Below, in pieces: positions 4,952 to 51,621 of a stretch of 64,000 nt of DNA. Below the pieces are notes generated by a model. It made no database searches. It was not told the origin of the DNA and saw only the letters and a list, made by a program, of their open reading frames with translations. This DNA comes from a virus. The stretch is from the IMG/VR virus record IMGVR_UViG_3300042402_005180, positions 1 through 64,000 of that record. One strand, given 5' to 3'. A program made the position numbers and the translations under genes. Within the stretch, counting starts at the first letter, position 1, and each line of letters starts with the position of its first letter.

Positions 4952-5661
4952 AGACGCTAACAATTTCATTATATAATAGACCAAAATACACTGCTACACT
5001 TTTACAACATCTTGATCAGTGCTTTGGCATTGAAGATTATAAAATAACAATTTGTTGCGACCCCGGATCAAAAGAAGTTGAAAAACTAGCTAAAAACTTT
5101 AGACCAAATCAAACTGAAACAATTATAAATAAACGAAGAATGGGATGTAATACTAATATCTACCAGTCGCTTGCAATTGGATTTTCACAAAATGATTATC
5201 ATATTCACTTTGAAGACGATACAATTCCCGGAAAAGATTGTTTGAAATATTTTGAATGGGCAAAACAATTTAGAGATGATTCTAGTCTATTTACGGTTTG
5301 CGGATATGTCACATCGGATAATTTAACAGAACATCACTATCCTAAAAATAATAATACAGATAGAGTATTTCGCAGATGCTGGTTCACTCCTTGGGGCTGG
5401 GCAACATGGAAAAGTAGATTTGATGAGATGGAAAAAGTTTGGGATTTTCAAGGGCGAAATGGCAGTTGGGACGCTACTATAAATCATGTAGCAAGAAAAG
5501 AAAGATGGGAGTTATTCCCAACTATTTCAAGAATACAAAATATTGGTGCTGAAATGGGAACTCATGTTCCAAATTCTGAATGGCATAAACAGCATCATTT
5601 TAACGAGTACTGGATAGAATCAATAAATATGTATACTAATAACTTTAAGGAAATTTTATGA
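4948..5661 (+). CDS. GT2-like glycosyltransferase
   Basis: 237 residues, with a TTG start overlapping the previous TGA. The opening KTLTISLYNRPKYTATLL and the metal site HFEDDTIPGKDCLKYFEWA fit a GT-A fold nucleotide-sugar transferase. CWFTPWGWATWKSRF near residue 150 is the aromatic block seen in bacterial sugar transferases of this group. It belongs to the operon from 1664 to 6239. Donor and acceptor cannot be read from sequence. Confidence 0.75.
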   Translation: MKTLTISLYNRPKYTATLLQHLDQCFGIEDYKITICCDPGSKEVEKLAKNFRPNQTETIINKRRMGCNTNIYQSLAIGFSQNDYHIHFEDDTIPGKDCLKYFEWAKQFRDDSSLFTVCGYVTSDNLTEHHYPKNNNTDRVFRRCWFTPWGWATWKSRFDEMEKVWDFQGRNGSWDATINHVARKERWELFPTISRIQNIGAEMGTHVPNSEWHKQHHFNEYWIESINMYTNNFKEIL

Positions 5662-17087: not shown

Positions 17088-19271
17088 ATGTCAATTAAAG
17101 CACTCCAAGACTATACTTTCACCGGAAAATATGCAAGATTTATTCCAGATAAAAAAAGAAGAGAAACGTACAAAGAAAGTGTTGATCGTGTTCGCAATAT
17201 GATGCATAAGCAATATGCAGATAAGGGCGAAGAAGTAGGAAAGATGATCGATTGGGCATATGATATGATGCTCAAGAAAAAGGGACTCGGCTCACAACGA
17301 GCATTGCAATTTGGCGGAGACCCAATCTTCAAGCATAATGCTAGAATGTATAATTGTACAGTTTCTTTTGCAGATCGTATAAGATTCTTTCAAGAGTGCA
17401 TGTATATGCTTCTTTGCGGATGCGGAGTTGGATTCTCAGTTCAGTTTAAGCATATTGATAAATTACCAAATCTTTTAGATAGCAAATCTGGAAAAGTAAA
17501 TTATACTATTCCTGACGATATTGAAGGGTGGAGCGATGCTGTCGGTATTTTAATTTCGTCATATTTTGATAGTGATAGCGAATTTCAAGATTATAAAGGA
17601 AAAGAAGTTCAATTTATTTATGATAAAATTCGTAAAAAGGGAACAAGAATTTCTGGAGGAGGAAAGGCTCCCGGTCCAGAACCACTAAAAAGGGCATTAG
17701 ATAAAATTAAAGACGTTCTTGATAAAGCTGTCCTGCGAGGCAATAAAAGAATCAAACCTATTGAAGTATACGATATAGTGATGCATTTTGCAGATGCTGT
17801 TATTTCTGGAGGAGTTCGCAGAAGTGCGACGATCTGCCTTTTTTCGCCAGAAGATAAAGAGATGGCTACCGCTAAAACTGGTAATTGGTTTATTGATAAT
17901 CCTCAGCGGGGGCGATCTAACAATTCAGCATTGCTACTTCGAGAGAAGACAACTCCTGAACAATTCTCTGAACTAATGAAGTCAGTAAAAGAGTTTGGTG
18001 AGCCGGGATTTGTATGGGCTGACGATGAAGACTTTATTGTTAATCCTTGTGTTGAAATCGGTATGTATCCAGTTGATATTGAAACTGGTGAAAGCGGTTG
18101 GCAGGGATGTAATCTTTCTACTGTTAATTGTGCGAAAGTTAATACAGAAGAAGATTTTTATGATGCAGTTCGTGCTGTAACAATTATTGGAACTCTTCAA
18201 GCTGGATTTAATAATTTTCCATATTTAGGTAAAACTAGCGAAAAGATTTTTGCCAGAGAGGCTTTACTTGGCGTATCAGGAACGGGCTGGTTTGAAAAGC
18301 CTGAAATTTGTTTAAATCCCGATATCCAAAGAAAGGCAGCAGAACTTGCAAAATCTACCAATAAAATGGTCGCAGCAGCAATCGGCATCAATCAGGCTGC
18401 GAGAGTCACGTGCGTTAAACCTGAAGGCACTGCTTCTTGTATTCTTGGTACTGCTAGCGGTATCCATCCTCATCATGCTAAACGCTATATTCGTCGTGTT
18501 CAGGCAAATAAGATGGAAGCAATCTACCAACATTTCCAAAAATGTAATCCAAGAGCGTGCGAAGAATCTGTTTGGTCGGCCAATAGGACCGATGATGTAA
18601 TTGCTTTTTGTATTGAAGTCCCTGATGGTAGCAAAACTAAGAACCAAATTACTGCTATTGAACTTCTTAAAACGGTAAAGTCAACTCAACAAAATTGGGT
18701 ATTGTCGGGAACTAATAAGGAGCTTTGTACTAAGCCTTGGCTTAATCATAATGTCAGCAATACTATTAATGTTAAGCCAGCGGAATGGGAAGAGGTTGAG
18801 AAATTCATTTATGATAATCGTGAATTTTTCTGTGGGATTTCCTTGCTTCCAGTAACAGGAGATAAGGATTATCCTCAAGCTCCATTTACTACTGTGTATT
18901 TACCTAGCGAGATGATTGCACATTATGGCGATGGAGTCATGTTTGCAAGTGGTTTAATTGAAGTTGCTTTAACTTTATTTGAAGATAATCTTTGGGCAGC
19001 TTGCGATAGCCTTCTTGGACTAGGCGCTCCAATCAAAGGTAAGGCTAAAGAAGAATGGGTATCAAGATGTGGAAGATTTGCCAATAAGTACTTTGAAGGT
19101 GACGTAAAGAAGTTTACCTATTGCATGAAAGATATTTATAACTTTAAACTCTGGACTGAACTTAAGCGAGAGTATGAAGATGTTGATTATACAGAAGTTC
19201 TTGAAGAATATGATGATACTCAATTGGAACAGGCAATGGCATGTACTGGTGGAGCTTGTGAAGTAGTATGA
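17088..19271 (+). CDS. nrdJ: Class II (adenosylcobalamin-dependent) ribonucleotide reductase
   Basis: 727 residues, close to the length of monomeric RTPR. Early block: GSQRALQFGGDPIFKHN and MYNCTVSFADR with the first redox Cys. The radical-site region is NPCVEIGMYP with Cys and Glu in the C-x-E pattern, followed by GWQGCNLSTVNC. Later comes VKPEGTASCILGTASGIHP. The C-terminal shuttle cysteines are Cys719 and Cys724 (CTGGACEVV). The enzyme reduces ribonucleotides using B12, so it works with or without oxygen and needs no NrdB. No intein or intron interrupts it. The ATG follows the deaminase by three bases. Confidence 0.93.
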   Translation: MSIKALQDYTFTGKYARFIPDKKRRETYKESVDRVRNMMHKQYADKGEEVGKMIDWAYDMMLKKKGLGSQRALQFGGDPIFKHNARMYNCTVSFADRIRFFQECMYMLLCGCGVGFSVQFKHIDKLPNLLDSKSGKVNYTIPDDIEGWSDAVGILISSYFDSDSEFQDYKGKEVQFIYDKIRKKGTRISGGGKAPGPEPLKRALDKIKDVLDKAVLRGNKRIKPIEVYDIVMHFADAVISGGVRRSATICLFSPEDKEMATAKTGNWFIDNPQRGRSNNSALLLREKTTPEQFSELMKSVKEFGEPGFVWADDEDFIVNPCVEIGMYPVDIETGESGWQGCNLSTVNCAKVNTEEDFYDAVRAVTIIGTLQAGFNNFPYLGKTSEKIFAREALLGVSGTGWFEKPEICLNPDIQRKAAELAKSTNKMVAAAIGINQAARVTCVKPEGTASCILGTASGIHPHHAKRYIRRVQANKMEAIYQHFQKCNPRACEESVWSANRTDDVIAFCIEVPDGSKTKNQITAIELLKTVKSTQQNWVLSGTNKELCTKPWLNHNVSNTINVKPAEWEEVEKFIYDNREFFCGISLLPVTGDKDYPQAPFTTVYLPSEMIAHYGDGVMFASGLIEVALTLFEDNLWAACDSLLGLGAPIKGKAKEEWVSRCGRFANKYFEGDVKKFTYCMKDIYNFKLWTELKREYEDVDYTEVLEEYDDTQLEQAMACTGGACEVV

Positions 19272-20339: not shown

Positions 20340-21035
20340 ATGTCAACACGCAAAACAAGAAAAACCGCTCAAAGAGCAACAGCAAGTGCTATAACTAATC
20401 CGCATCGTAAAATACTTAAACCGAAAAGTATTAATCAAGAAAACTATATCATATCTATGGTTGAAAACGATATTACAATTTGTACAGGTCCAGCAGGATC
20501 TGGCAAATCTTCGGTTGCTGTTGGTCTTGCGTGTAACTGGCTTTTAGAAAATAAAATAGAAAAAATCATAGTAACAAGACCAGTTGTTGAAGCCGGTAGA
20601 GGGCTTGGATATCTTCCCGGTAGTAAAGATGAGAAGATACAACCCTATGTTATGCCAGTTCTTGAAGAGATGCAGCAATATCTTGGCAGAGAATTATTAA
20701 ACAAACAGCTTGCTGCTGGAATTGTTGAACTCTGTCCACTTGAGTATATGAGAGGAAGAAACTTCCATCATTCATTTATGATACTTGATGAAGCACAGAA
20801 CGCAACGTATGAACAAATAAAAATGTTTTTAACTAGAATAGGAATGCATTCACGAGCAATTATTGAAGGCGATCCATATCAATCAGACCTACCCCTTTCT
20901 ATGAGGGGTGCAATGATGGATATTAGAGACAAGCTATTTGGATTACAAGGAGTTGGAGTTTGTGAACTTCAGGCAACAGATATTGTTCGTAACCCTATAA
21001 TCGGTCGAGTACTAGAAAGGCTAGAGACTAGATGA
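20340..21035 (+). CDS. phoH: PhoH-like ATPase
   Basis: 231 residues. Walker A is GPAGSGKSS (50-58), Walker B FMILDEAQN (146-154). IIVTRPVVEAGRGLGYLPG and LCPLEYMRGRNF are the standard PhoH blocks, with IIEGDPYQSDLP as sensor region. PhoH is a P-loop NTPase linked to RNA metabolism (similar to the N-terminal part of a helicase) and is one of the commonest phage auxiliary genes. Its role in phages is not settled. Confidence 0.92.
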   Translation: MSTRKTRKTAQRATASAITNPHRKILKPKSINQENYIISMVENDITICTGPAGSGKSSVAVGLACNWLLENKIEKIIVTRPVVEAGRGLGYLPGSKDEKIQPYVMPVLEEMQQYLGRELLNKQLAAGIVELCPLEYMRGRNFHHSFMILDEAQNATYEQIKMFLTRIGMHSRAIIEGDPYQSDLPLSMRGAMMDIRDKLFGLQGVGVCELQATDIVRNPIIGRVLERLETR

Positions 21036-23022: not shown

Positions 23023-23456
23023 GTAAATACAAGTCTCCATCAACTGGAGACTTTTGTACTTCAGCACAATATGTTGCTGAATTAATTTGTCAGAAACTTG
23101 CAAAGCATGAAAAAGTAGGGACGCTCCCCTATAAGTTTTGGAATCTGCCAAAATGGAAAAAAATATATATTAGGCAAGTTTCGTTAGCAAATAAACTAAT
23201 AAAAGAATACGGCGAAGAGTCTGTTATAAAATTTGTAAAGTCAAGTGCAGGTAAAAATACAATTTCTCTTGGAGCTAGAAATGTAAAAAAAGAAATTGAA
23301 AAAATTAAATTTGCTCTTGACAATACGCCAAAGCGTGATACAATTGAAATAATTGCGATTGAGCCACTTGAATTTAAACCAAGAAAATCATTTGGAACCA
23401 AAACGCTTGTAAATAGATTGAAAGATATAGAAAGTGACATGAATAACAATGGATAA
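22992..23456 (+). CDS. Conserved-looking phage protein upstream of RecA
   Basis: 154 residues. The block STGDFCTSAQYVAELICQKL and GTLPYKFWNLPKWKKIY looks like a motif I have seen in phage proteins of unknown function. The C-terminal half is basic (FKPRKSFGTKTLVNRL). It overlaps recA by eight bases. DNA binding or a recombination accessory role is a guess from position and charge. Confidence 0.55.
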   Translation: MSGKKIQTALSKYKSPSTGDFCTSAQYVAELICQKLAKHEKVGTLPYKFWNLPKWKKIYIRQVSLANKLIKEYGEESVIKFVKSSAGKNTISLGARNVKKEIEKIKFALDNTPKRDTIEIIAIEPLEFKPRKSFGTKTLVNRLKDIESDMNNNG

Positions 23457-24441
23457 AGATTTTCTTAAAAAATATGGCGATTACGTAACAACTGGCGAAA
23501 AAGTATTAGAAACTAAAAAAAGCTACAAAACTATCTCTATTAGTCCTGCAATTGATCTTGCTCTAGGAGGTGGTGTTAAAGAAGGCTCTTGGATGATTCT
23601 TTCTGGGCCACCAAAAGCTGGCAAGACAACCACAACTATGCAAATCATTGCCAACTGTCAAGCAGAAGGTCGAAAGATTATTTATCTTGATGTAGAGGGT
23701 CGGCTTAAAGAAATGAACTTTGAAGTTCCGGGAATCGATCCATCTTTAGTGCAAGTAATTCGATCAGGAGACCAGCCATTACCAGCAGAAACATTTCTTG
23801 ATATTGCAAGAAAGTTAATATCTGAAAAAGAGAACGAAGGTTGTGTTCTTGTTATTGACTCTATTTCTTCCCTAATTCCTTCTCGTGATCTTGATGAAGA
23901 TATTAGCGGCATGACTCGTCCGGGTTTGCCAAAGATTCTATCAGATTTTGTAAAAAAACTTGGTCAAACTGTACCAAACCAAAAGTGTCTTGTTATCATG
24001 ATTACGCACATGATTACGAATACCAGTGGATATGGTAAGAGTAAAATGGCTGATGGCGGTGTTAAGATTCAATTCCAAGCCGACACGAGAATGGAAGTAA
24101 AAAGTGTTCAGCCTTGGGAATCTGCAAGCTCTAGTAAAGATCAAAAGAATGTCATTGGATTAAAGGTTACATGGGATATCCTTTGTTCATCTATTGGATC
24201 TCCTTATAAGACTTGCGAGAGTTGGATTAGATTTGGTCATGGAATCGACAAAGTGCAAGAAATTCTTATGATTGCAATCGATCTTGGTCTTATTTCAGTT
24301 GCTGGCTCATGGTACAACCTTGACTTTATTGAATCTGAAAAAGTTAAGTTGCAAGGACAAGAGAAGGTATATAATTATTTAACTGAAAATCCAGAAGCAT
24401 ATAAAACGCTGGAGTCTAAAGTTAAGGAACTATTATATTGA
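23449..24441 (+). CDS. recA: RecA/UvsX-like recombinase
   Basis: 330 residues. Walker A GPPKAGKTT (53-61); catalytic Glu83 in YLDVEG; Walker B VLVIDSISSLIPS; the DNA-loop region around MADGGVKIQF. The order and spacing fit RecA-family strand-exchange ATPases, with a short C-terminal domain as in phage versions. It would act in recombination-dependent replication and repair. A TTG-started nuclease gene overlaps its stop. Confidence 0.9.
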   Translation: MDKDFLKKYGDYVTTGEKVLETKKSYKTISISPAIDLALGGGVKEGSWMILSGPPKAGKTTTTMQIIANCQAEGRKIIYLDVEGRLKEMNFEVPGIDPSLVQVIRSGDQPLPAETFLDIARKLISEKENEGCVLVIDSISSLIPSRDLDEDISGMTRPGLPKILSDFVKKLGQTVPNQKCLVIMITHMITNTSGYGKSKMADGGVKIQFQADTRMEVKSVQPWESASSSKDQKNVIGLKVTWDILCSSIGSPYKTCESWIRFGHGIDKVQEILMIAIDLGLISVAGSWYNLDFIESEKVKLQGQEKVYNYLTENPEAYKTLESKVKELLY

Positions 24442-29682: not shown

Positions 29683-30497
29683 TGAGTCAAATTTTAGCAT
29701 TCAGCGGAAAGAAACAATCAGGGAAAAATACTCTTTGCAATTTCCTTCATGGGTATCAATTAAAAAGCTACTCTATGATCGATGGGTTTGAAATTGCAGA
29801 AACTGGAGATCTGATTATTGAAACAAGCATAAGAGAAGAAACTGGAAAAATTTCTAAAGGAAAGGGTCAAATTGATGTTACAAGATTAGATATTGAATTT
29901 GTTGTATGGGCAATGGATAATATCTGGCCTTTTGTTAAACATTACGCTTTTGCAACAGCTTTGAAAGAAATGGCAATTGGTTTATTTAATATTAAGAATG
30001 AATTAATATATGGAACTGATGAACAAAAAAATCAATTAATCCAATATAAATGGGAAGATATGCCAACAAAAGTTAAGGGTAAAACTGGATTTATGACTGG
30101 CCGAGAGTTTATGCAATATTTTGGAACTGATATTTGTAGAAAAGTATATCCTGATATTTGGACAAATAGACTAATTAAAGATATTCAAGCAGAAGAACCT
30201 AATCTAGCTATTATTTCTGACGCAAGATTTGAAAATGAAATTAAAGCAATTCAGGCAGTAGGTGGAAAAGTTATTAGATTAACTAGAGAAGTTTCAGGCG
30301 AAGATTCTCATGATAGCGAAACGTCACTTAATAATTATGATGGTTTCGATGCAGTAATTGATACGCAAAACCTTAATATAGAACAGTCATGCGAAGAGCT
30401 AATAAAAATTCTTAGCGAGTGGAGATGGTTTGATACAAAAACACTTATCGCTCCAGACAAACCAACTAAAAAGCAATCAACAATGGCAATTCGATGA
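29682..30497 (+). CDS. Deoxynucleoside monophosphate kinase
   Basis: 271 residues. P-loop GKKQSGKNT (9-17), then the phage dNMP-kinase blocks TGREFMQYFGTDICRK, PDIWTNRLI and IISDARFENEIKAI. It phosphorylates dNMPs to dNDPs using ATP, the step after dCMP deaminase and dUTPase. A long insert around 30-70 is unusual but harmless-looking. Shares its first base with the primase stop codon. Confidence 0.88.
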   Translation: MSQILAFSGKKQSGKNTLCNFLHGYQLKSYSMIDGFEIAETGDLIIETSIREETGKISKGKGQIDVTRLDIEFVVWAMDNIWPFVKHYAFATALKEMAIGLFNIKNELIYGTDEQKNQLIQYKWEDMPTKVKGKTGFMTGREFMQYFGTDICRKVYPDIWTNRLIKDIQAEEPNLAIISDARFENEIKAIQAVGGKVIRLTREVSGEDSHDSETSLNNYDGFDAVIDTQNLNIEQSCEELIKILSEWRWFDTKTLIAPDKPTKKQSTMAIR

Positions 30498-31525
30498 TAA
30501 CAACATATTTTAGAAGTTCTAGTCTAAATAACTGGAAATACTGTCAAATGCAGTATTTTATGACTTATGTTTTAGGACATCAATCGCCATCAGGAAAAAA
30601 AGCTGACTTAGGAACTATAACCCATGCGGTATTTGAAACACTAGCACTATGTAAAAAAAGAACACAGTTTAATAAACGTAGCAATATGAAAATCACTCAA
30701 GAGCCTTTGGGTGATTTTTCTTTTACAGAAGAGCAGTTATATACTAGTGAATTTGTAAATTATATTCTTGGAAGAAGTTTTGACTATTATAAAACTAATT
30801 GTACTCATAACCAGTTTAATCAAAAAGATTATGAATTTTGCTATAAAATGGTATGGGATACTTTAGCGTATAATAATGGACAATTTGACCCCCGTAATCG
30901 TAAAATTATTGATACAGAACCACATTTCGATATTCCTATTAAGGAACCTTGGGCTAAATTTAGCTTCGCTGGACCGGATGGAGAAGAAATTTCTGGAAAT
31001 CTTGCGATAAAAGGGACGATTGATCTTGTAACTGAGCTGCCAGATGGTACAATAGAAGTGATCGACTGGAAAACTGGGCAGAGGTTAGATTGGGCCACGG
31101 GCGAAAAGAAGGACTACGAGAAACTTATGACAGATACTCAACTTCTTCTTTACCACTATGCTATTGGTAAATTATATCCTATGCATCGACACGCTTTAAT
31201 GACTATCTTCTTTTGTCGTGATGGAGGTCCATTTACGCTTGCTTTTGATGAGCAGGATGATAAAAACTTCATAAAGACACTCGAAAAGACATTTAAAGAA
31301 ATTACAATTAATCAAGCCCCTAAGCCAGTTTCAAAAGATCGAAACAATTTTAAATGTGAAAAACTTTGTCACTTTTATAAAACAGTTTGGCCCGGAACAA
31401 ATAAAACAATGTGTCATCACGTAGAACAGCAACTCTCTACTATTGGTATGGAAAAGACTGTAGCTACATGTTCTAGGCCGGGATTTGCAATTGGGACATA
31501 TAAGGACCCCGGAGCAGTTGAATGA
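30494..31525 (+). CDS. RecB/Cas4-like PD-(D/E)XK nuclease
   Basis: 343 residues. RSSSLNNWKYCQMQYFM at the start is the typical first helix of PDDEXK_1 nucleases. LGTITHAVFE gives the active-site His. The core is GTIDLVTELPDGTIEVIDWKTG, with Asp, Asp and Lys in order. A C-terminal CEKLCHFY...C cluster resembles the FeS/zinc anchor of Cas4/AddB types. Likely a DNA-end exonuclease for recombination. Overlaps both neighbours by four bases. Confidence 0.8.
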   Translation: MITTYFRSSSLNNWKYCQMQYFMTYVLGHQSPSGKKADLGTITHAVFETLALCKKRTQFNKRSNMKITQEPLGDFSFTEEQLYTSEFVNYILGRSFDYYKTNCTHNQFNQKDYEFCYKMVWDTLAYNNGQFDPRNRKIIDTEPHFDIPIKEPWAKFSFAGPDGEEISGNLAIKGTIDLVTELPDGTIEVIDWKTGQRLDWATGEKKDYEKLMTDTQLLLYHYAIGKLYPMHRHALMTIFFCRDGGPFTLAFDEQDDKNFIKTLEKTFKEITINQAPKPVSKDRNNFKCEKLCHFYKTVWPGTNKTMCHHVEQQLSTIGMEKTVATCSRPGFAIGTYKDPGAVE

Positions 31526-33006
31526 TTATTCCAGCTATTACAACTCACTATTCACTATCAAAGGGCTTTATCAAGCCAGAAGAGGCAGCTAAAAAGTGTA
31601 AAGACCTTGGCTATACTCATTGCCTACTTGCTGATAATTCATTAAGTGGTGTGGTTGAGTTTTTTAGCTGTATGAAAAAAGAAGGCATAGTACCCATCAT
31701 TGGTTGGAAAGTCGATGATGGGCATTTTATTGCAAAAACACTAGAAGGTTATAAACTTCTTGTTAAATTATTCTCAGGCGAGAATATAATATATTATGAT
31801 GAAGATCTTGAATTTTATCCAGATGGTAGTCTTGAATTACTAGAAGTCTGCTATGCAGAAAAAAGAGATGCAATTCTCCATAGAATTGTTCTTTGTTCTG
31901 GGTTAAAAACTACGCTTAAAAAAGCAAAAGACATTGATCTTGGTGAATTTAAGAAATATTTTGAAAGTGATGACTACTCATTTGAATCAAGCAGAAATGC
32001 GCAAGTCTTCAATTTTAGCAATAATACAAAGTTAATTTCTGAACTAAAAGACTATACAATTTTTGCAAAGCCTAAACTTCCAAAAGTGGACTGTAAAGGT
32101 CAAACAGAAGAGGAATATATAACACAGTTATGTCGTGAAGGCTGGAAGAAAAAATTATCGTATTTAAAAGGAGAAAAAAGACAAGAGTATGGCGACCGTG
32201 TAAAGTACGAACTTTCAATTATCAATGGCTTTGGCCTTGCGGGATATTTTTTAATTGTGCAAGATATTATCGCATATGTTAGAAATAATGGTTGGTTGCC
32301 GGGACCGGGAAGAGGTTCTGCTGGAGGTTGTTTAGTATCTTATCTTTTAGGCATTACAGAAATTGATCCAGTAAAATACGATCTACTATTTTCAAGGTTC
32401 CTTAATTCTGGTCGATTCAGCAAAGATAATATATCATTACCGGATATTGATATGGACGTTCCTTCTAATCATCGTGATGAAATCATTGAGTATCTTAAGA
32501 ACAAATATGGTCATCAACGAGTTTGTCAAATGATTACCTTTGGGCGATTGCAAGGGCGATCAGTAATTAAAGAAGTGGCTCGTATATATGGAGATTTATC
32601 ATTTTCTGAGTTAAATGAGATCACTGAAAGCCTTCCGCCTGAGTCAAGTATTTCAGATGAACTTGAAGAAATGGATATAAAATCAGTTATTATCTGGACA
32701 CTTGAAAATAAGCCCGAAAAATTAGGTAAATGGTGCAGACTAGTTAATGGAAAATTAACAGGAGAGTTGTCCGATCTATTCGACCTTGCTATAAGAATTG
32801 AAGGAACTTTTAAAAGTCAAGGAGTTCATCCTGCTGGTGTAATTATATCCAATGAAGATCTTCTTAATGATGCTCCGCTAATAAAAAATAAAAGCGGAAA
32901 TAATGTAGTAGGTTTTGAAATGCATGATTTAGATAAAGTGGGACTAACTAAATTCGATGTCTTGGGAGTTAATCTTTTAGATAAAATAATGGAAATTAAA
33001 AAATGA
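31522..33006 (+). CDS. dnaE: DNA polymerase III alpha, N-terminal half (PHP, palm, thumb)
   Basis: 494 residues. Residues 1-70 are a degenerate PHP domain (TTHYSLSKGF; ADNSLSGVVEFF): the usual H-x-H and D-H are T-x-H and D-N, so it is probably inactive. The palm holds GPGRGSAGG (261-269), catalytic Asp310 and Asp312 in PDIDMDVP, and the third catalytic Asp479 in KFDVLG. The frame ends 15 residues later with a clean TGA. The fingers and later domains are absent here and are supplied by the ORF at 34981. Together the halves cover a compact PolIII alpha with no evident missing segment. Confidence 0.9.
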   Translation: MIIPAITTHYSLSKGFIKPEEAAKKCKDLGYTHCLLADNSLSGVVEFFSCMKKEGIVPIIGWKVDDGHFIAKTLEGYKLLVKLFSGENIIYYDEDLEFYPDGSLELLEVCYAEKRDAILHRIVLCSGLKTTLKKAKDIDLGEFKKYFESDDYSFESSRNAQVFNFSNNTKLISELKDYTIFAKPKLPKVDCKGQTEEEYITQLCREGWKKKLSYLKGEKRQEYGDRVKYELSIINGFGLAGYFLIVQDIIAYVRNNGWLPGPGRGSAGGCLVSYLLGITEIDPVKYDLLFSRFLNSGRFSKDNISLPDIDMDVPSNHRDEIIEYLKNKYGHQRVCQMITFGRLQGRSVIKEVARIYGDLSFSELNEITESLPPESSISDELEEMDIKSVIIWTLENKPEKLGKWCRLVNGKLTGELSDLFDLAIRIEGTFKSQGVHPAGVIISNEDLLNDAPLIKNKSGNNVVGFEMHDLDKVGLTKFDVLGVNLLDKIMEIKK

Positions 33007-33212
33007 ATGAAAAAATAAGCTATGCTGAAGTTATAATAAAAGGAAATGATATAAATTACAAAGATATTTCTTTATGTGATTTAAGAAATTATGTTCCTTG
33101 GTATCGAAATAAAAAAAATGGTATTTATCAAGTTCACAGTAATAAATTTTCACAAATATATTATAATTTGGATGACGCAATTAATAAATTTTTGGAATTA
33201 AAAGGAAAATAG
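33003..33212 (+). CDS. Small hypothetical protein between polymerase halves
   Basis: 69 residues. ATG overlaps the polymerase N-half stop (ATGA). It contains YVPWYRNKKNGIYQVHSNKF and IYYNLDDAINKFLELKG, which faintly resembles small DNA-binding modules that accompany homing endonucleases; this is not a firm assignment. The stop is followed directly by the HNH promoter. Confidence 0.5.
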   Translation: MNEKISYAEVIIKGNDINYKDISLCDLRNYVPWYRNKKNGIYQVHSNKFSQIYYNLDDAINKFLELKGK

Positions 33213-33241
33213 TTGCCTGTTACAAGACTTTTGTGTATAAT
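33213..33241 (+). promoter_or_regulatory. Promoter for the second HNH gene
   Basis: TTGCCT (33213-33218), 17-base spacer, TATAAT (33236-33241) preceded by TTGTG. The expected start near 33248 is ~21 bases before the HNH ATG. The spacer is the left arm of the inverted repeat at 33219-33289, so RNA from here lacks that arm. Confidence 0.65.
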
Positions 33242-33289
33242 AATATGGAAACAGAAAAGGAGAATTTAATGAAAACAAAAGTCTGTAAC
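33219..33289 (+). promoter_or_regulatory. Long inverted repeat enclosing the RBS and start of the HNH gene
   Basis: GTTACAAGACTTTTGT (33219-33234) pairs with ACAAAAGTCTGTAAC (33275-33289): 15 pairs with one bulged A. The 40-base loop holds AAAAGGAGA (33255-33263) and ATG 33269; the right arm is codons 3-7 of the gene. Read-through RNA from the polymerase operon can fold and hide the start; RNA from the local promoter cannot. The same logic controls I-TevI in phage T4. Confidence 0.7.
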
Positions 33290-34063
33290 GTGTGTAATAT
33301 TGAAAAATCAGAATCTGAATACTATAAAAAAGGTTCTGGATTACAATATAGATGTAAACAATGTGTAAAAAATCATATTAGGTATGAAAAATGTCCTAAT
33401 TGTGATAGACAAAAAAGATTAGAAGCTGAATTATGTTCTATATGCTCTAAGCAGTCTCAGAGAGAAGTATATTCAGAAGAATTAATAAATCAAGTAATTG
33501 ATCTTTATACTTCAGGGCTATCTACTTGGAAAATTGCCAACCAATTAGGTAGTTATCAGGTGAAGATAGTAAGAATTCTTCACAGAAATAATATTAAGTT
33601 AAGAAATAATGATTTTGTAAATAACGGTAAATATAGAGAAGATAATCCAGCTTGGAAAGGATACAAATTAATAAGTGGGGGATATTTTGCGTCAATTAAA
33701 AGATCCGCAGATTCCAGAAATCTAGAATTTGATATTAATATTGAATATCTAAATGAACTATTTGAGCTTCAAAATGGGAAATGCGCAATATCTGGATTAG
33801 ACATTATACTTCCTAGAAGCGATGAAAGTAGATCAACTGGAGAATATACTGCATCATTAGATCGGAAAAATTCTAATTTAGGTTATATTAAAAATAATTT
33901 ACAATGGGTTCATAAATGGGTTAATAAAATGAAGCAAAATTTACAAGAAGATGAATTTTTATATTTATGTAGCTTGATAACAGATAATAATAAAGATAAA
34001 ATAAAAGAAGTTGATATTAATACTTTAATGCAATATAAAAGGAGAAATAAAATTGGCACTTAA
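33269..34063 (+). CDS. HNH homing-type endonuclease (second copy)
   Basis: 264 residues from ATG 33269 (AAAAGGAGA upstream; an in-frame GTG at 33233 lies in the promoter). Residues 5-62 carry two Cys pairs twice over (CNVC...CKQC and CPNC...CSIC). Residues ~72-115 form a helix-turn-helix (SGLSTWKIANQLGSYQVKIV). The nuclease at ~170-245 has GKCAISGLDI, SLDRKNSNLGYIKNNLQW and VHKWVNKMK. It is related to the HNH protein at 6606. It lies between the two polymerase halves, and its tail overlaps the TTG of the exonuclease gene while supplying its GGAG site. Confidence 0.85.
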   Translation: MKTKVCNVCNIEKSESEYYKKGSGLQYRCKQCVKNHIRYEKCPNCDRQKRLEAELCSICSKQSQREVYSEELINQVIDLYTSGLSTWKIANQLGSYQVKIVRILHRNNIKLRNNDFVNNGKYREDNPAWKGYKLISGGYFASIKRSADSRNLEFDINIEYLNELFELQNGKCAISGLDIILPRSDESRSTGEYTASLDRKNSNLGYIKNNLQWVHKWVNKMKQNLQEDEFLYLCSLITDNNKDKIKEVDINTLMQYKRRNKIGT

Positions 34064-34760
34064 TACGTATCGTGACTATTGTGTTATGGACCTAGAAACC
34101 TCTGGTAAAAACCCTAATGGTTGTCAGATCACTCAAATTGCGGCTGTGGTAATCCACGGCAAGAAATTGACTCTCCAGCCCGGAGGAATCTTCAACATTG
34201 AAGTAAGGCCCGAATTTGACGACGAGAAGGCCATTGCTGCCGGATTCGATCCAGTAGAGCAAGAGGCTCTTGATATAACACGTAAAACTCGTGAACAGCT
34301 CGAAAAGGCGATTGGGCCAAAAGAAGCGTGGAGTCAGTTTGTAAACTTTGTAAATAAGTTCAACGCTAAAGGCAGTCCTTATTTTGCACCAATTCCCGTA
34401 GGATATAATATTAATAATTTCGATTTACCAATAGTCGAAAGATACTGTCGTATTTATGGACCAAAAGAGGAAAAAACTGGAAGACAAAAATTATTTAATC
34501 CTATTTTTAAAGTTGATATGATGGATAATCTATTTATGTGGTTTGAAGATCATAGCGCTGTTCAAAAATTAAATTTAGGTTATTTACGAGATTTCTTTGG
34601 GTTTCCAGAAAAGAGCAAAGCAAATGCTCACGATGCTCTTTATGATGTTGTAGATACTGCAAATCTTTTTATTAAGTTTCTTAAATATCACAGAAAACAC
34701 AGCGAAAAAACTAAATTTGAAAAATCATTTGCCGACATTAAAATGGATATTGAACTATGA
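34053..34760 (+). CDS. DnaQ-like DEDDh 3'-5' exonuclease
   Basis: 235 residues from TTG 34053 (AAAGGAG eight bases upstream). All DEDDh residues are present: Asp13 and Glu15 (VMDLETSG), Asp124 (GYNINNFDLPIV), His193 and Asp198 (NAHDALYDV). It probably proofreads for the split polymerase, whose PHP domain looks inactive. The first ~110 codons are visibly richer in G and C than the rest of the gene and than the flanks, which suggests a recombined segment next to the HNH gene. Confidence 0.88.
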   Translation: MALNTYRDYCVMDLETSGKNPNGCQITQIAAVVIHGKKLTLQPGGIFNIEVRPEFDDEKAIAAGFDPVEQEALDITRKTREQLEKAIGPKEAWSQFVNFVNKFNAKGSPYFAPIPVGYNINNFDLPIVERYCRIYGPKEEKTGRQKLFNPIFKVDMMDNLFMWFEDHSAVQKLNLGYLRDFFGFPEKSKANAHDALYDVVDTANLFIKFLKYHRKHSEKTKFEKSFADIKMDIEL

Positions 34761-34984
34761 AAATTAAATCAATTGAAAAATATTCGCATTTCATAATTGA
34801 AATGGAAGATGGTAAAATTTATAAATATGTCCCGGACCAATCAAAGCAAACTCATTGGGGAGAGTGGTTTCTTGATTTTGACGGTCATTATATAAAAGTG
34901 ATTAATGAAGAAAAAATTAATCAACTAAAAGACGCTTATATTGAACATGTTGACTATATAATCTCTTGTGGAGCATACCAGTGA
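34757..34984 (+). CDS. Small hypothetical protein between polymerase halves
   Basis: 75 residues, beta-rich at the start (KIKSIEKYSHFIIEMEDGKIY), helical at the end. Overlaps the exonuclease stop (ATGA), and its own stop overlaps the GTG start of the polymerase C-half (GTGA). No family recognised. Tight coupling suggests co-translation with both polymerase components. Confidence 0.5.
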   Translation: MKIKSIEKYSHFIIEMEDGKIYKYVPDQSKQTHWGEWFLDFDGHYIKVINEEKINQLKDAYIEHVDYIISCGAYQ

Positions 34985-36555
34985 CTCAAGATTTTGATAT
35001 TGATAATTTTGAAGACATTGCAACATGGGAATTAATTAGCAGTGGCAAAACTAAAGGTGTATTCCAGCTAGAATCTAAATTGGGTTCTAGTTGGGCCAAG
35101 CGAGTTAAGCCACGTAATATTGAAGAGCTGGCAGATTTAATTTCAATTATTCGTCCGGGAACTCTTGAGGCGGAACTTGAAGGAAAGTCTATGACTAAAC
35201 ACTATGTTGATCGCAAGTGGAAAATAGACGAGACTAAATATTTACATTCTGCCCTTGAGCCATTACTTGGTAGTACATATGGCATTATCGTATATCAAGA
35301 ACAGGCGATGAAAATTGCAACTGCTCTTGCTGGATTTACCCCAGAAGAAGCAGATTCGCTTCGCAAGGCGATGGGTAAAAAAGATGCTGCTCTTATGAAT
35401 GAAGTGGGACAGAAATTTATTAAAGGCTGCGAAGCAAAAGGAATTGTTGATGCAGCATCCGCAGCACAAATCTTTAACTGGATTCAGGCTTCAGCCCGAT
35501 ATTCATTTAATAAAAGCCACGCAGTTGCTTATGCTATTAATTCTTTTCGCTCTGCTTACTGTAAAGTCCATCGTCCATTAAAATTCTATGAGAAATATCT
35601 TAATCATGCTCATAACAAACCGGATAAGCAAAAGGAAATAAAAGAACTTATTATGGATGCTAAATTATCTGGCATTGAAGTTTACCCTCCAAGATTAAAT
35701 AATTTACATAGAACTTTTACTCGTGATGGAAGCAAAGGTATTATATACTTTGGATATAGCAATGTAAAAAGTGTTGGTGAGGGAGAACAGGAAAAAATCG
35801 AAGCGGTTATTACTGATGCGGTTAAAAGTTCAAATAAGCCGATTTCAGAATTTAACTGGCTTGATTCTTTGTTTTATATCGGCAATGAAATTAAAAAGAA
35901 CGCATTTATTTCACTTATTAGCGTTGGAACTTTTTCAGGAAAAAACAACGCTTTAACTAGAAATCAAATGATGTTTGAATTTGATATTTGGTCAAAATTA
36001 ACAGTAAAAGAACAGACTTGGATTATCAATAATCGAAACAGTAGTAATTGCTTAAAAAGTTTAGTTCAAAAAATGATAAATGAAAATGAGAAAATCAATT
36101 CTAGAAGAATGGCGTCTGTATTAGATATTTATCAAGCTCTTGAAAATCCGCCATATTCTTTGGAAGACGATTATGCATGGATAGCAGAAACAGAACAAAA
36201 ATTAATGGGCTGTGCTTTAACATGCTCTACTGTTGATATGTCATGTAGTGATGTTAATATTACTTGTGCAGAAATTGCAAATGGTGAAGTTAAGAGTATA
36301 AAAGATGCTTGTTTAGGAGTTAGAATTAATGAAGTAAAAGAATATACGATTAAACGTGGAAATTCAATTGGAAAAATCATGGGATTTGTAAGTGCAGAAG
36401 ACTGGAGCGGGGAGCTTGATTCCATAACATTTTTTTCTGATGAATTTGAAAAATATAAAAAGTTGCTTTTTATCGGAAACACGCTATTATTATATGGTGA
36501 GGTTCAAGAGAAAAGGGACAAATCCTTTGTAGTTAAACATGCAGAACAAATTTAG
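34981..36555 (+). CDS. dnaE: DNA polymerase III alpha, C-terminal half (fingers onward)
   Basis: 524 residues from GTG 34981, chosen because it overlaps the previous stop (GTGA); a TTG at 34966 is possible. It opens with the segment that follows the palm in bacterial alpha subunits: TKGVFQLES, LADLISIIRPGTLE, GIIVYQEQAMKIATALAGF, ADSLRKAMGKK and FNKSHAVAYAINSFRSAY. The last ~130 residues look like an OB-fold (KSIKDACLGVRINEVKEYTI; GNTLLLYGEVQ). No start-up intein residues are present. It must associate with the N-half without covalent linkage. Confidence 0.9.
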   Translation: MTQDFDIDNFEDIATWELISSGKTKGVFQLESKLGSSWAKRVKPRNIEELADLISIIRPGTLEAELEGKSMTKHYVDRKWKIDETKYLHSALEPLLGSTYGIIVYQEQAMKIATALAGFTPEEADSLRKAMGKKDAALMNEVGQKFIKGCEAKGIVDAASAAQIFNWIQASARYSFNKSHAVAYAINSFRSAYCKVHRPLKFYEKYLNHAHNKPDKQKEIKELIMDAKLSGIEVYPPRLNNLHRTFTRDGSKGIIYFGYSNVKSVGEGEQEKIEAVITDAVKSSNKPISEFNWLDSLFYIGNEIKKNAFISLISVGTFSGKNNALTRNQMMFEFDIWSKLTVKEQTWIINNRNSSNCLKSLVQKMINENEKINSRRMASVLDIYQALENPPYSLEDDYAWIAETEQKLMGCALTCSTVDMSCSDVNITCAEIANGEVKSIKDACLGVRINEVKEYTIKRGNSIGKIMGFVSAEDWSGELDSITFFSDEFEKYKKLLFIGNTLLLYGEVQEKRDKSFVVKHAEQI

Positions 36556-36565
36556 GAGTTGAATA

Positions 36566-36889
36566 ATGAATGTTTGTTGTTTTATTGGAAAATTGGTTAA
36601 TGATCCAGAGCTAAGGGAAATCAATGAAACTTATGTTGTAAATTTTTCTTTAGCCGTAGAGGACTATAGAAAAGACAAAGAAGGTGAAAAGCATAGAAGA
36701 ATTGATTTTTTAGATTTTGAAGCATGGGATAGCGGAGCAACTACTATCGCCAAACATTTTAAAAAGGGCGATATGATGGCAATTGAAGCAGAAGCTAGGC
36801 AGCACAAGTGGACATCTAATGATCAAAAGCGTCAAAAAATTGTTTTCAGAGTAAAAACTTTTAAATCTTCAGGATGCAAAACGGAATAA
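36566..36889 (+). CDS. ssb: Single-stranded DNA-binding protein
   Basis: 107 residues with an SSB-type OB-fold: NVCCFIGKLVNDPELRE, VVNFSLAVEDYRKDKEGE, FLDFEAWDSGATTIAKHFKKGDMM (split across residues 49-71), IEAEARQHKW. The acidic C-terminal tip of bacterial SSB is absent, so it may not recruit the usual host partners. AGGAG precedes the ATG. It closes the replication block. Confidence 0.85.
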   Translation: MNVCCFIGKLVNDPELREINETYVVNFSLAVEDYRKDKEGEKHRRIDFLDFEAWDSGATTIAKHFKKGDMMAIEAEARQHKWTSNDQKRQKIVFRVKTFKSSGCKTE

Positions 36890-36892
36890 AAT

Positions 36893-38542
36893 ATGAGAAA
36901 AAGAAAAGTATTATTTGTAACAGAGGCATCTTTTATGCCGACTGGATATTCAGTTTATACAAAAGAAGTTTTATCAAGACTTCATAAGCATCCAGAATTA
37001 GAAGTTGCAGAACTGGCGTGTTTTACAACTCAAAAAGCAGAAGAAATTAAATCAGTTCCTTGGAAAGTATATGCCAATGTTCCTGATCCAGAGAATCAAG
37101 AACATAACAATATATATAATTCTAGCATGACAAATAAGTTTGGAGATTTTACATTTAATCATGTATTAATAGATTTTCAGCCAGATTTTGTTATGGATAT
37201 TCGTGACTGGTGGATGCTGGAATTTGAAGAGAGATCTCCATTTAGAGACTTCTTTAACTGGGCTATAATGCCAACAGTTGATGCAGAGCCACAAAATATT
37301 TCATGGATTGATACATATTCTACTGCTGATGCGGTTTTTTCATATTCTGAATTTGGTAGAGATACCATGCTTCAACAGTCAAAAAATATAAATTTTATAG
37401 ATGTAGCATCTCCTTGCGCAAGTAATAGCTTTCATCCTATAAAAGATAAAAAAGCTCTAAGAAATGAATTTGGACTAAAGGACGATATTACTATTTTTGG
37501 AACAGTTATGCGCAACCAAAGACGCAAATTGTATCCAGATTTATTTAAGGCATTTAGATTATTCTTAAATGAAAACCCCTCACTAACAAATGTATATCTA
37601 TATTGCCATACAGCATATCCAGATGTTGGTTGGGATATTCCAGATTTAATTAAAGAAAATGAACTGGGTAATAAAGTTTTACTAACTTATAAGTGCAGAA
37701 AGTGCAATAAGATCAGTTCTCTATTCTTTAATGATGCTGTTACATTTTGCAATTCATGCGGAGCATATGCTTCATGCCCAGTCGGAATTCAAAATAAAAT
37801 TGAAGAAAGCGATCTTAATAAAGTTTACAATCTTTTTGATGTATATATTCAATGGGCAAATAGCGAAGGTTGGGGAATGCCCCAACTTGAAGCAGCTCAT
37901 GCGGGGCTTCCAATAGTCTCTGTTCACTACTCTGCTATGCAGTCTCTTATTGATAATATCGAAGGAATTGGAATTAAGCCAATCGGATTTTATAAAGAGC
38001 TAGAAACAGGATGCATGAGAGCAGTGCCTGATAATCAATCTTTAGCTAATATAATTCGTGATTTATCAGTAGATACAGCTAAGAGAAATTATATAGCAAA
38101 TAAGTGCTATGTTAATTCAAAAAATATTTACGATTGGGATTTTACTGCAAATAAATGGTTGAAGTATTTCTTAGCAGCTCCATTAAAAGATCCTAAGACA
38201 ACTTGGCTTTCTCCTCCTAGATTTTTTAATCCAGCAAGAGAAGTTCCTGAGCAAGTAAAAAATATTTCAATTGCCGATCAAGTAAATTGGCTATTTATGA
38301 ATGTACTTGGAAAACCAGAACTTTTAAATAAAAGCATATGGAAGCGAATGTGTAAAGATCTGATTTATAGATCAACAATGTCGTCTATTATACCGGGTTA
38401 TTATTATAACGAGTATTCTCATCCAGATATGGAGAAAAGATTTGAAGAGTTTAACATTCAAAAGGCTTTTGAAAATTGTTTGAACATGAGAAATTCTATT
38501 AATGAATGGGAAAAAGTAAGAGTTCAAAGGATTAGCAAATGA
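36893..38542 (+). CDS. GT4-type glycosyltransferase with zinc-ribbon insert
   Basis: 549 residues. The N-terminal domain has VTEASFMPTGYSVYTKEVL. The donor domain has FGTVMRNQRRKLYPDLFKAF and the GT4 block EGWGMPQLEAAHAGLPIV. Between them, residues 268-289, lies an intact CxxC...CxxC ribbon (CRKC and CNSC), which standard GT4 enzymes lack. A further ~110 residues follow the catalytic part. It opens the second glycan island directly after ssb. Confidence 0.78.
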   Translation: MRKRKVLFVTEASFMPTGYSVYTKEVLSRLHKHPELEVAELACFTTQKAEEIKSVPWKVYANVPDPENQEHNNIYNSSMTNKFGDFTFNHVLIDFQPDFVMDIRDWWMLEFEERSPFRDFFNWAIMPTVDAEPQNISWIDTYSTADAVFSYSEFGRDTMLQQSKNINFIDVASPCASNSFHPIKDKKALRNEFGLKDDITIFGTVMRNQRRKLYPDLFKAFRLFLNENPSLTNVYLYCHTAYPDVGWDIPDLIKENELGNKVLLTYKCRKCNKISSLFFNDAVTFCNSCGAYASCPVGIQNKIEESDLNKVYNLFDVYIQWANSEGWGMPQLEAAHAGLPIVSVHYSAMQSLIDNIEGIGIKPIGFYKELETGCMRAVPDNQSLANIIRDLSVDTAKRNYIANKCYVNSKNIYDWDFTANKWLKYFLAAPLKDPKTTWLSPPRFFNPAREVPEQVKNISIADQVNWLFMNVLGKPELLNKSIWKRMCKDLIYRSTMSSIIPGYYYNEYSHPDMEKRFEEFNIQKAFENCLNMRNSINEWEKVRVQRISK

Positions 38543-46468: not shown

Positions 46469-46809
46469 ATGATAATTTCCTTAATTTCTTCGTTTTCAGA
46501 TTGTTGAAAAGCAAATCGTAGCTCGCAATCTGTGTGAAGATAATGATGTACCGTGAATGATTTTAATCTATTAAAAAAATCCTCATTTTGTTCATTATAT
46601 CGCAAAATTAAATATGAAACAAAATTTGCAATTGCTGGCAAAATTACATTATTCTCAGTGCATTGTGAACATCCAACTTCGTTGTTTGCAATTTTTTTCA
46701 TTTGATCTTTATAGTTTAACATAAAATTAAATTCTGGCAAAATAACATAAAAATCATCTTTTGCCAATGCACCTATAATATATTCTCTATCTATATATTT
46801 AATATTCAT
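46465..46809 (-). CDS. Hypothetical tail-operon protein
   Basis: 114 residues from ATG 46809 (TAATG overlap with the upstream stop; three upstream in-frame codons lack support). Helical, with CSQCTENNVILPAIANFVSYLI and FTVHHYLHTDC. No family recognised. Size and place before a ribbon protein suggest an assembly factor, unproven. Confidence 0.5.
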   Translation of the reverse strand: MNIKYIDREYIIGALAKDDFYVILPEFNFMLNYKDQMKKIANNEVGCSQCTENNVILPAIANFVSYLILRYNEQNEDFFNRLKSFTVHHYLHTDCELRFAFQQSENEEIKEIII

Positions 46810-48530
46810 TATCCACAACTCCCAAGTCTATTATTATCACAACATGATAAGTATATTTTATCAAATACATTTATTCCACATGATTGGCACGATATTGTAG
46901 GTTGATATTCTTTAACTGGACATCCTGTAGCAATGTCAATTATATCTTGTATTGACACATTCATATTTCCATATGTGAATCCTCCACACCCTGCTATTTT
47001 ATCATTAGCATTAATTCCAGCTTCAACTTTTAAAAACCCAGAGCAAGGATTACATGGATCAAATATATTAGGCCCAGAAAAGCACTCTTTATCCTCTTCT
47101 CCATATTGTCTAATATTTATATTAGTATTAAATAAGCCCCCTTGAAAAAGACATGTACCTCCTGCAAATAAACAAGCATCTTCCCAAGATGTCTCATTTT
47201 CCCACCAACCACCTTCATCCATAAATTTTACCAAATATTCGCATCCCGGTGGTAAGTTTTCATCATTTTCTCCGAAATCAGGTCTTGGTATAAATTTTTG
47301 TTTGATTCTTATACATTTAAGCTCATCTAATGGTGGCAAATCAGCACAAGAACATCCTCTATCTCCTTTTCCATGATAGTTTATAAATCTAACTCCTGCT
47401 GGGCACTCTTCAGTTGGATCATCGGGTAGTCCTCTGCTTCCAGCAAATATAGCCGGATAAAATCTAAATTTTCCAGCACTACCGCATTCTCCAAGTTCAG
47501 AGTTAAGTTCACTTGCCCAAGCTCCATAGCTACAATATGTTCGAACCTTATAATATTTATAGCCACAAACCTTATAAGAGGCCCATGCATATTGATTTGC
47601 ACAAAAATTTTCTTCTGTACAGCCAGCATCTGTAACAGGAGGCTTTGATATATTGCAACATCCGCTATACTGACTATAGGGTCCAAGAATCATAAGGAAC
47701 TCATTATTTCCGCTGCTAGATACTGTTCCTCCTCCTGCCGCACCTCCTCCGATTGGTCTCCATTCATAATTAATATTAGCAGCTAAAAAATAATCACCAG
47801 ACTGTAAAGAAAAACTATTATTTCTATTTGTAAGTTGAACTACTTCTTTAACATTTAAACTAGATGGACCGTCTTTTACCATTTCTCCATATGGATTTGG
47901 CTTTACTACTCCTGAATTATTTCTAACTAATGTAAAAGTAGAATACTGAAGATTTTTACCTCTGTATATTTGTCCAGAACCAACTGAAGGAGACGAAAAA
48001 TCACCAGCAGATAAATTACTAACCATTCTACCTTCTATAATTTCTGTGCCACCGGTCCAAACTTTTCTATTGTCATCCCATCTTAAATCAACTGGCCCAG
48101 TTTTCCATTTTGATCGATCAACGGGAGTTTCTAAATTAAATACTCTACCATTTGATCCAGATGGCATTGGAAGTCCACAGACATCATATCCCCACCCTGA
48201 TAAATAAAATGGTCCCTTCCAAACCATAGGTTGCACGCTATGACTTCCGCTAGCAACTGGAAATTTTTTATGATTAAAATCTTTTGTTAATCCCGCCCTT
48301 GCAGTTATAGAATAATCATTTTTATCAAAAAAGAAATATGGATCAAGATCAAAAGAAGTTGGAGAAACATTAAATTTAAAAAATACTCCTGAACATTTAG
48401 CTGTTTGATCTATTGGTCCTTGAGTTGAAGGATACATCAAAGTTGGATCAACCGATATATTTTGCGGAACTTCTGAAATCTGTTTTGCATTCCAAAGAAC
48501 TTGTCTATATCCTGACTGAAAATTAACCAT
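46809..48530 (-). CDS. Tail protein with very Cys-rich C-terminal half
   Basis: 573 residues. Residues 1-280 are beta-rich and nearly free of Cys (VNFQSGYRQVLWNAKQISEV). Residues ~290-573 hold 24 cysteines, many in pairs (SGCCNIS, GCSCADLPP, DPCNPC, ISCQSC, LSCC). Such density suggests metal-binding knots or disulfides in an exposed tail tip. Between the hub-like and terminal genes it may be a fibre tip or adhesin. No family recognised. Confidence 0.6.
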   Translation of the reverse strand: MVNFQSGYRQVLWNAKQISEVPQNISVDPTLMYPSTQGPIDQTAKCSGVFFKFNVSPTSFDLDPYFFFDKNDYSITARAGLTKDFNHKKFPVASGSHSVQPMVWKGPFYLSGWGYDVCGLPMPSGSNGRVFNLETPVDRSKWKTGPVDLRWDDNRKVWTGGTEIIEGRMVSNLSAGDFSSPSVGSGQIYRGKNLQYSTFTLVRNNSGVVKPNPYGEMVKDGPSSLNVKEVVQLTNRNNSFSLQSGDYFLAANINYEWRPIGGGAAGGGTVSSSGNNEFLMILGPYSQYSGCCNISKPPVTDAGCTEENFCANQYAWASYKVCGYKYYKVRTYCSYGAWASELNSELGECGSAGKFRFYPAIFAGSRGLPDDPTEECPAGVRFINYHGKGDRGCSCADLPPLDELKCIRIKQKFIPRPDFGENDENLPPGCEYLVKFMDEGGWWENETSWEDACLFAGGTCLFQGGLFNTNINIRQYGEEDKECFSGPNIFDPCNPCSGFLKVEAGINANDKIAGCGGFTYGNMNVSIQDIIDIATGCPVKEYQPTISCQSCGINVFDKIYLSCCDNNRLGSCG

Positions 48531-51500: not shown

Positions 51501-51621
51501 AAGGATCGTCTTCTTCTTCTACAAGAGTAATAGAACAAGAAGTATTTTCTCCATTCCATCCAGCACTTATATTTACATCTGTAACATACGCACCTAAGAA
51601 TTTTATTGGTTTTTTTATCAT
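48523..51621 (-). CDS. Large tail/baseplate hub-like protein
   Basis: 1032 residues. The N-terminus KFLGAYVTDVNISAGWNGEN, then CSITLVEEEDD and CCMLKIIDDDTNQTFKYAGIVQR, looks like the first barrel of hub proteins that bind the tail tube end. Long mixed regions follow, with a helical segment near the end (RYNIERIITSQKEKF). ATGA overlaps with both neighbours. Hub or distal-tail role is inferred from position after the tape measure and the N-terminal pattern. Confidence 0.55.
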   Translation of the reverse strand: MIKKPIKFLGAYVTDVNISAGWNGENTSCSITLVEEEDDPSRPGKKIDDVYFQPPEIGTCCMLKIIDDDTNQTFKYAGIVQRYSYVEDVSSGRKWEVELNSPSSFLDGVFLILGSFIGTIYVDDNDIINPSAKPVIQYNSSINYEFYNISKSAFEDKNWYTPVNMINLYAYKENIGKGGKFGGADRNSLGYPISTFVKDFTDCCKKGVFGGNLFFGGTEYEFDISDLSTAIKELNDYRIKSTFVDFNSFLRDISEITMYDYYIYIDEDKTKGYIADDLGVMKKAALKLKMLPRKKPSDSDQVKKIITNLLKVPDESKNIKSYRIGKELTTELVSQKVIIGDNATRHWFANQGHMLPIWGKKGAGINTIYYHGTGMNQYLDFFSPIRVVIDALDMTGQRNSFVKEGDFLWFDTNLLEMRCAISSRQTWDMYHKLMMAAPTDLQLKLNYYTPLKTISGFDNFSLKDIRDVFKGNKTTHDLMDTSLDSAELYASYMFGTKDAQKDIMQRTLNTRYNGIKKIADDFYGKEFLVAVPSEPGGIENNFRWIELDQEPEYAWELDNSAWAGNDITKYITDTSFYDGGAGRLKCTVAYPLYSYDPIWGGILADYSDLNSQYTIIDYLDNANQTKKGILGAATVDTAWGIRYVDVTKLYQEIAGQKFPVTSPSGQLMTDSAGNKVLNKIYGFCKVTVPSVEIYDQYTTEVNAFGVLAKLIFQDDSEIGKSTKVGYQNMFGSENILDGSIAPAKMPPVLISVPQKSTRYVWGPWWAFSGWDSSSEINAKEGRKGKVNISADTSLKPETFGSTDDMNIFASQMAQAELTSIHALETGYIEFSETPKWNISDKIFDTGPYITTISISISSEEIKTTYNFTTWTKKRGELARYNIERIITSQKEKFKIDTEIRNSIRRAFLPPVNKSFFSFMEKQKINSINRSSAQGIWANWNNSLWRTINQIKPQSPSDYGAINAHSSASQPAMKALGFSPEESFGVSYEQIYSPAYVWNQRYPIEHKALFNSGLFEVRGKESSGTTMGGIFYG

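Follow-up and report, generated by a model that had tools for sequence, protein, structure and literature searches.

Replicative DNA polymerases normally carry the palm and the fingers on one chain, and movement of the fingers is coupled to catalysis. The split-intein DnaE of cyanobacteria is cut inside the fingers (CFNKSHS) and joined by protein trans-splicing. Essential phage genes in two pieces are also known, such as nrdA of phage Aeh1 and gene 43 of T4-like phages, with a homing endonuclease nearby. The "fractured genes" of Dassa et al. (2009), as cited in PMC10448857, are split genes that adjoin homing endonucleases. In group 2.2 jumbo phages, the alpha subunit of DNA polymerase III (Pol III) occurs as an N-terminal protein that binds nucleoside triphosphates (NTP) and a C-terminal protein that binds Mg and the template (Iyer et al., 2021, PMC7824862). 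The two jumbo-phage genes are distant from each other, the other Pol III domains are absent, and a family B polymerase is encoded alongside (PMC7824862). The locus described here lies in a stretch of 64,000 nucleotides (the window), positions 1 to 64,000 of the 77,674-base phage record IMGVR_UViG_3300042402_005180 in IMG/VR. Its Pol III alpha is not a single polypeptide and is encoded by two open reading frames (ORFs), polN and polC, which other genes separate by about 2 kb. With a probability of roughly 0.8, the two products constitute a C-family replicase of two polypeptides that assembles non-covalently, works with an exonuclease partner and descends from a single ancient split, with mobile guests arriving later and a re-fusion in one relative, L123.

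polN (31522–33006, plus strand, like the other genes of the locus) encodes 494 amino acids, matches Pfam DNA_pol3_alpha over its full length (PF07733, 1–260 of 260, E 2e-73) and has a PHP match (E 5e-12), covering a degenerate PHP domain, the palm and the thumb. It carries the GPGRGS motif and ends 15 residues past the third catalytic Asp, D479. In the alignment to 2hnh, D401, D403 and D555 of E. coli alpha correspond to D308, D310 and D479; an earlier note, made from the sequence without database searches, had named residues 310, 312 and 479, of which D310 and D479 belong to the triad and D312 is also invariant. The active-site Asp residues and GPGRGS are kept, and the Asp residues are invariant in 32 aligned polN sequences. 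polC (34981–36555; ORF from 34966) starts about 10 residues ahead of the fingers domain (PF17657, 26–166 of 166, E 1.5e-43), which is followed by weaker matches to HhH (HHH_6), in the HhH/clamp-binding region, and to the OB fold. The start of polC is more likely GTG 34981 than TTG 34966, because TGGAG stands just upstream and this GTG overlaps the stop of the preceding ORF (GTGA). Between them the two genes thus hold the features of a C-family polymerase, a palm with the GS motif and the Asp triad, then the fingers with HhH and OB behind.

Both halves align to intact DnaE, a comparison that the earlier note had proposed. Residue 487 of polN equals residue 563 of E. coli alpha and residue 15 of polC equals residue 591, so that the two together lack little or none of the intact sequence, as the same note had held; the reported ends, 15 residues past the third Asp and at the fingers, also agree with the alignment. 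polN reaches about E. coli residue 570 and polC begins at about 580, with the break in the helix-loop that joins palm and fingers. The PHROG profiles matched by the two proteins represent whole polymerases or fragments with other ends. Structures of the halves were predicted separately with AlphaFold2, giving a predicted local distance difference test score (pLDDT) of 90.5 for each and a predicted template modelling score (pTM) of 0.88 for polN and 0.84 for polC. In Foldseek searches (E ≤ 0.001), both returned only Pol III alpha and PolC, besides alpha–epsilon chimeras for polN, and the top matches of each half were Pol III alpha throughout. These results confirm that polN and polC are complementary parts of one DnaE-like Pol III alpha and that the split is real.

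The gene that accompanies the two halves throughout encodes a DEDDh 3'-5' exonuclease of the epsilon/DnaQ-like proofreading type (34053–34760). Pfam RNase_T (PF00929, E 2e-10) covers residues 11–206, the DLE, NNFD and HDAxxD motifs of the DEDDh class can be read in the protein, and PHROG 192, "DNA polymerase exonuclease subunit", is matched with E 1e-25. Between the window and its relative L019, the ratio of nonsynonymous to synonymous substitution rates (dN/dS) is 0.055 for polN, 0.09 for polC and 0.043 for the exonuclease, with synonymous sites near saturation, and comparisons with L007, L011 and L016 give 0.03–0.07. Both halves are under strong purifying selection. The degenerate PHP site of the window's clade would suit two decaying remnants in a phage that is copied by the host polymerase. 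However, dN/dS of 0.03–0.09 for both halves, invariant active-site residues, conservation of polN and polC among relatives down to about 40% identity, and the full replication module that surrounds them make decay extremely unlikely.

An intact dnaE elsewhere in the genome, which the earlier note had listed as a possible refutation, was not found in the window's IMG/VR record. Fifteen records of the lineage, the largest of 155 and 178 kb, were searched for palm, fingers and family A and B polymerases. Exactly one palm and one fingers gene were present in 14 of them, and no family A or B polymerase was detected in the 15, PF00136 (family B) being unmatched. The remaining record, L012, has an extra fused dnaE fragment of bacterial type at its contig end (14050–14623). 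A glycosyltransferase ORF gives way to this fragment without transition, at a point after which L026 differs; L012 was therefore treated as a chimeric contig, and the fragment was rejected as a second polymerase and should not enter counts. The split enzyme thus appears, from these sequences, to be the only recognisable replicase in the records.

IMG/VR was searched with the window polN and with alignments of each half, giving at least 516 confirmed relatives for polC and at least 589 for polN. From among the matches listed, 150 distinct loci (given here as L numbers) were classified: 138 are split, nine are unsplit (L123 and eight distant outgroups) and three are cut elsewhere. All 138 split loci have polN and polC in separate frames and the exonuclease gene in the middle (polN–exonuclease–polC), and recurrence of this order in so many distinct related loci is more than chance. 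The halves stand 597 to 6,779 bases apart (median 878). In L037 (9884–15467), 5.6 kb with about a dozen ORFs lies between them, which shows that long inserts can be accommodated. No close relative of the lineage exists among about 50,000 phage records: of 50,697, a single one has a match to the exonuclease, and that a weak one (23.5% identity). A genome scan aimed at the host gave only distant unsplit relatives (32–37% identity), mostly from Lachnospiraceae.

The interval in the window holds four ORFs, one fewer than the five genes first reported. Besides the exonuclease and an HNH endonuclease, these are orfA (33003–33212), a conserved protein of 69 amino acids whose start overlaps the polN stop, and orfB (34757–34984), a variable ORF of 75 amino acids with a similar ORF in L010 and a remnant in L019. 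In 96 of the 138 split loci the gene right after polN belongs to the orfA family, which measures 69–83 amino acids and is tied to the exonuclease gene in these loci and in L123. In early-branching phages, another small ORF, one with a CC motif, takes its place.

The halves might instead be joined after transcription or translation, through an intron that holds orfA, the HNH gene and the exonuclease or through trans-splicing inteins. A split intein is indeed present in L196 and L254, but it lies inside polC (FNK/C...SN/SHA) and not at the polN/polC junction. In the window, no N- and C-intein flank the break, and a Pfam scan detected no Hint (intein splicing) domain in polN or polC, although the same approach detects the intein of L196. 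With polN ending 15 residues past the third Asp and polC starting about 10 residues before the fingers, the ends are too short for intein halves. An Rfam scan of 31000–37000 gave no match to group I or II introns at E up to 5. In addition, polN tails past the third Asp vary from 15 to 43 residues across the relatives, the intervening sequence is a set of conserved coding genes, and polC has a start and a ribosome site of its own. Joining is accordingly very improbable. The non-inteinic break at the palm/fingers boundary proposed in the earlier note is borne out by complementary Pfam and E. coli alpha coverage and by selection on both halves.

In L196, L254, L256 and L277, polC is broken again by a split intein at FNK/SHA. 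The intein ends read FNK/CLSPKT ... TSN/SHA, and the intein-broken polC genes span 9904–12760 in L196 and 8315–11147 in L254; L237, L256, L263, L277 and L292 also carry such genes, with only the N-intein seen in L237 and L292. L196 and L254 have a nuclease ORF in the polC gap (DUF559/Vsr-like in L196), which gives a replicase in three pieces.

The free-standing HNH homing-type endonuclease of the window (33269–34063; PHROG 3322, E 8e-23, and PHROG 1035) had been linked to the split by analogy with Aeh1 nrdA and T4-like gene 43. The corresponding explanation, under which the gene was disrupted by a homing endonuclease whose presence accounts for the split, has in its favor the HNH-like sequences between the halves in six of the 138 split loci, including L005, which is near-identical to the window, and the HNH gene just upstream of the fused polymerase of L123. 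However, no HNH match separates the halves in the other 132 split loci. The HNH block of the window and of L013 lies outside the polymerase coding sequence, with orfA on one side and the exonuclease on the other, and between L007 and L013, whose flanks are 97.6–99% identical, a block of about 880 bases with the HNH gene replaces 38 bases. This pair of empty and occupied sites makes the HNH gene a recent guest, and together with its occurrence in only six of 138 loci, a passenger. The HNH gene was therefore rejected as the cause of the maintained split, and the explanation by homing is quite unlikely: an endonuclease at the break, as in Aeh1 nrdA or gene 43, does not characterize this lineage. 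The constant element between the halves is the exonuclease, and the HNH gene is an optional late guest.

The HNH ORF was listed from GTG 33233, but ATG 33269 is the more likely start because this GTG lies inside the −10 box of the gene's own probable promoter. This sigma70-type promoter (TTGCCT-N17-TATAAT, 33213–33241, 10 of 12 positions matching) had been pointed out in the earlier note, and a similar box (TTGACG-N17-TATAAT) precedes the HNH gene of L013, although the promoter scan of the window is overall at chance level (29 found versus 27.6 expected).

The earlier note had also called for an unsplit relative that lacks the HNH gene. An unsplit relative exists: L123, a contig of 80,465 bases, encodes a one-chain polymerase of 1144 amino acids that is 46–47% identical to each half. 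It falls inside the split clade, however, and has an HNH gene, with orfA and the exonuclease upstream of the polymerase and the HNH gene following them. This HNH-type ORF (4065–5138) has an N-terminal helix-turn-helix match and apparently two HNH-like repeats, and overlaps the fused polymerase at its start. Two contigs from other metagenomes, L209 and L226, show the same order as L123, the exonuclease and then polN, and end inside polN. Polymerase trees place L123 inside the split clade with bootstrap and Shimodaira–Hasegawa-like approximate likelihood ratio test (SH-aLRT) values of 100/99 in one analysis and 97/99 in another, and a tree of six neighboring genes nests it there as well. With a supermatrix of polymerase, exonuclease and the six genes, the approximately unbiased (AU) test rejects L123 outside the split clade (p = 0.00016). 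The linker from the third Asp to the first aromatic residue of the fingers has 29 residues in L123 versus 36–41 in the measurable unsplit outgroups; in the split phages, the polN tail and the shortest polC head typically sum to about 30. On these sequence data L123 looks like a natural re-fusion of the split halves, which, if right, means that the two halves work as one enzyme.

The competing possibility is that L123 keeps the ancestral unsplit gene and that the split postdates its divergence, with no re-fusion. Several results weigh against the reading favored here, and some of them leave room for this one. AU tests on single data sets do not reject L123 outside the split clade (p 0.12–0.55): polymerase-only tests give p 0.13–0.15 for L123 as an unsplit outgroup, and the exonuclease alone (p 0.55) is uninformative on its position. 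Only a single contig shows the full fusion, a second polymerase could lie beyond the records, which may be incomplete, and the polN/polC complex and its polymerase activity are what we infer from sequence. An ancestral L123 would also agree with its intact PHP metal site. The nested position in the best polymerase trees (bootstrap 97–100), the supermatrix test and the short linker speak against it, as does the orfA–exonuclease pair, which is common to L123 and the derived split phages and not to the early-branching ones. An unsplit ancestry of L123 is thus improbable, although it is a slightly stronger contender than the explanation by homing.

The two-polypeptide reading would then run as follows. 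polN would supply the degenerate PHP domain, the thumb and the palm with every catalytic Asp, and polC the fingers, the HhH/clamp-binding region and the OB fold. These two most likely come together as one active polymerase, held by non-covalent contacts, and the product of the exonuclease gene between them most likely serves as the proofreading subunit, a partnership that we infer. A single event at the root of a large uncultured phage lineage would have produced the split, which was then inherited; the HNH genes, and the split inteins in polC of some relatives, would have come later as mobile guests, and the lineage of L123 would have re-fused the two genes. A more elaborate version can be proposed only tentatively and is doubtful: the exonuclease may be the bridge that holds both halves through the old PHP domain, forming an obligate three-protein core in which polymerase and proofreading are switched on together and from which one lineage escaped by re-fusion. 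L123 and most of the early-branching split phages retain a complete PHP metal site (HHDDHEDHH), whereas in the clade of the window and in others it is degenerate. Such a pattern would be expected if proofreading passed to the separate exonuclease.

Across the relatives, the nuclease site of the N-terminal domain of polN (31522–31990 in the window) has apparently been lost repeatedly. Many early-branching polC proteins (L028, L029, L034, L037, L112, L126, L214, L219, L224 and L232) begin with a head of roughly 50 residues that includes F-x-CGC-x-F and, further along but ahead of TWD, another Cys, possibly forming a small metal site; this head is absent in the window's clade. On either side of the locus lie its usual syntenic neighbors, a PD-(D/E)XK nuclease gene upstream of polN (30494–31525; Pfam PDDEXK_1, E 7e-18) and ssb, for a single-strand DNA-binding protein, downstream of polC (36566–36889; Pfam SSB, E 1e-18), both in the same place in relatives. 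The window also encodes several glycosyltransferases, a B12-type ribonucleotide reductase, PhoH and RecA (this set at 2339–3127, 9412–10491, 36893–38542, 17088–19271, 20340–21035 and 23449–24441). The minus strand at 46809–63984 has five large ORFs (572–2011 amino acids) without a profile match where tested.

A whole phage lineage thus appears to run on a polymerase cut between palm and fingers, with a re-fused relative as internal control. Such a pair would allow experiments to ask whether the covalent palm–fingers linkage matters for speed and fidelity, and it bears on how an essential enzyme persists in split form and how it returns to one chain. Because this lineage lacks a close relative in the phage records, its replicase would go unnoticed or be annotated as a truncated gene. 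Pairs of split and re-fused genes also offer natural templates for two-part polymerases in biotechnology.

The earlier note had regarded a non-inteinic palm/fingers split of a C-family replicase as new. A split C-family replicase is not new as such, being known from the jumbo phages (PMC7824862) and the Cellulophaga phages, but every precedent found is cut at another place, and no earlier palm/fingers split was found in the open-licence papers searched or in the phage records (best 60 of about 1,300 DnaE matches per search). Like the window, the group 2.2 jumbo phages have the catalytic subunit in two stand-alone proteins that are thought to reconstitute one enzyme; the features of their split were taken from the text of PMC7824862. 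In contrast, the window gene is cut after the last catalytic Asp, so that the NTP- and Mg-binding parts are both on polN, the genes are neighbors, PHP, HhH and OB are kept, and the enzyme is the only replicase seen, with no family B match in the 15 records. Cellulophaga phages phi13:1 and phiST, Tenacibaculum phage Larrie and Bacillus phage Jayan have a two-ORF Pol III alpha cut inside the palm, just before DxD. These resemble the window in that two ORFs, adjacent or close to each other, encode a DnaE-like polymerase and no intein is annotated, but they have no exonuclease gene between the halves, and the Cellulophaga and Tenacibaculum forms lie on a distant branch of the polymerase tree. The split-intein DnaE of cyanobacteria is likewise a replicase in two genes, whereas the window has no intein; the polC split inteins of L196, L254, L256 and L277 lie within a few residues of the cyanobacterial site. 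In comparison with Aeh1 nrdA, gene 43 and the fractured genes, the endonuclease of the window is an optional late guest, and the constant neighbor of the split is a proofreading exonuclease.

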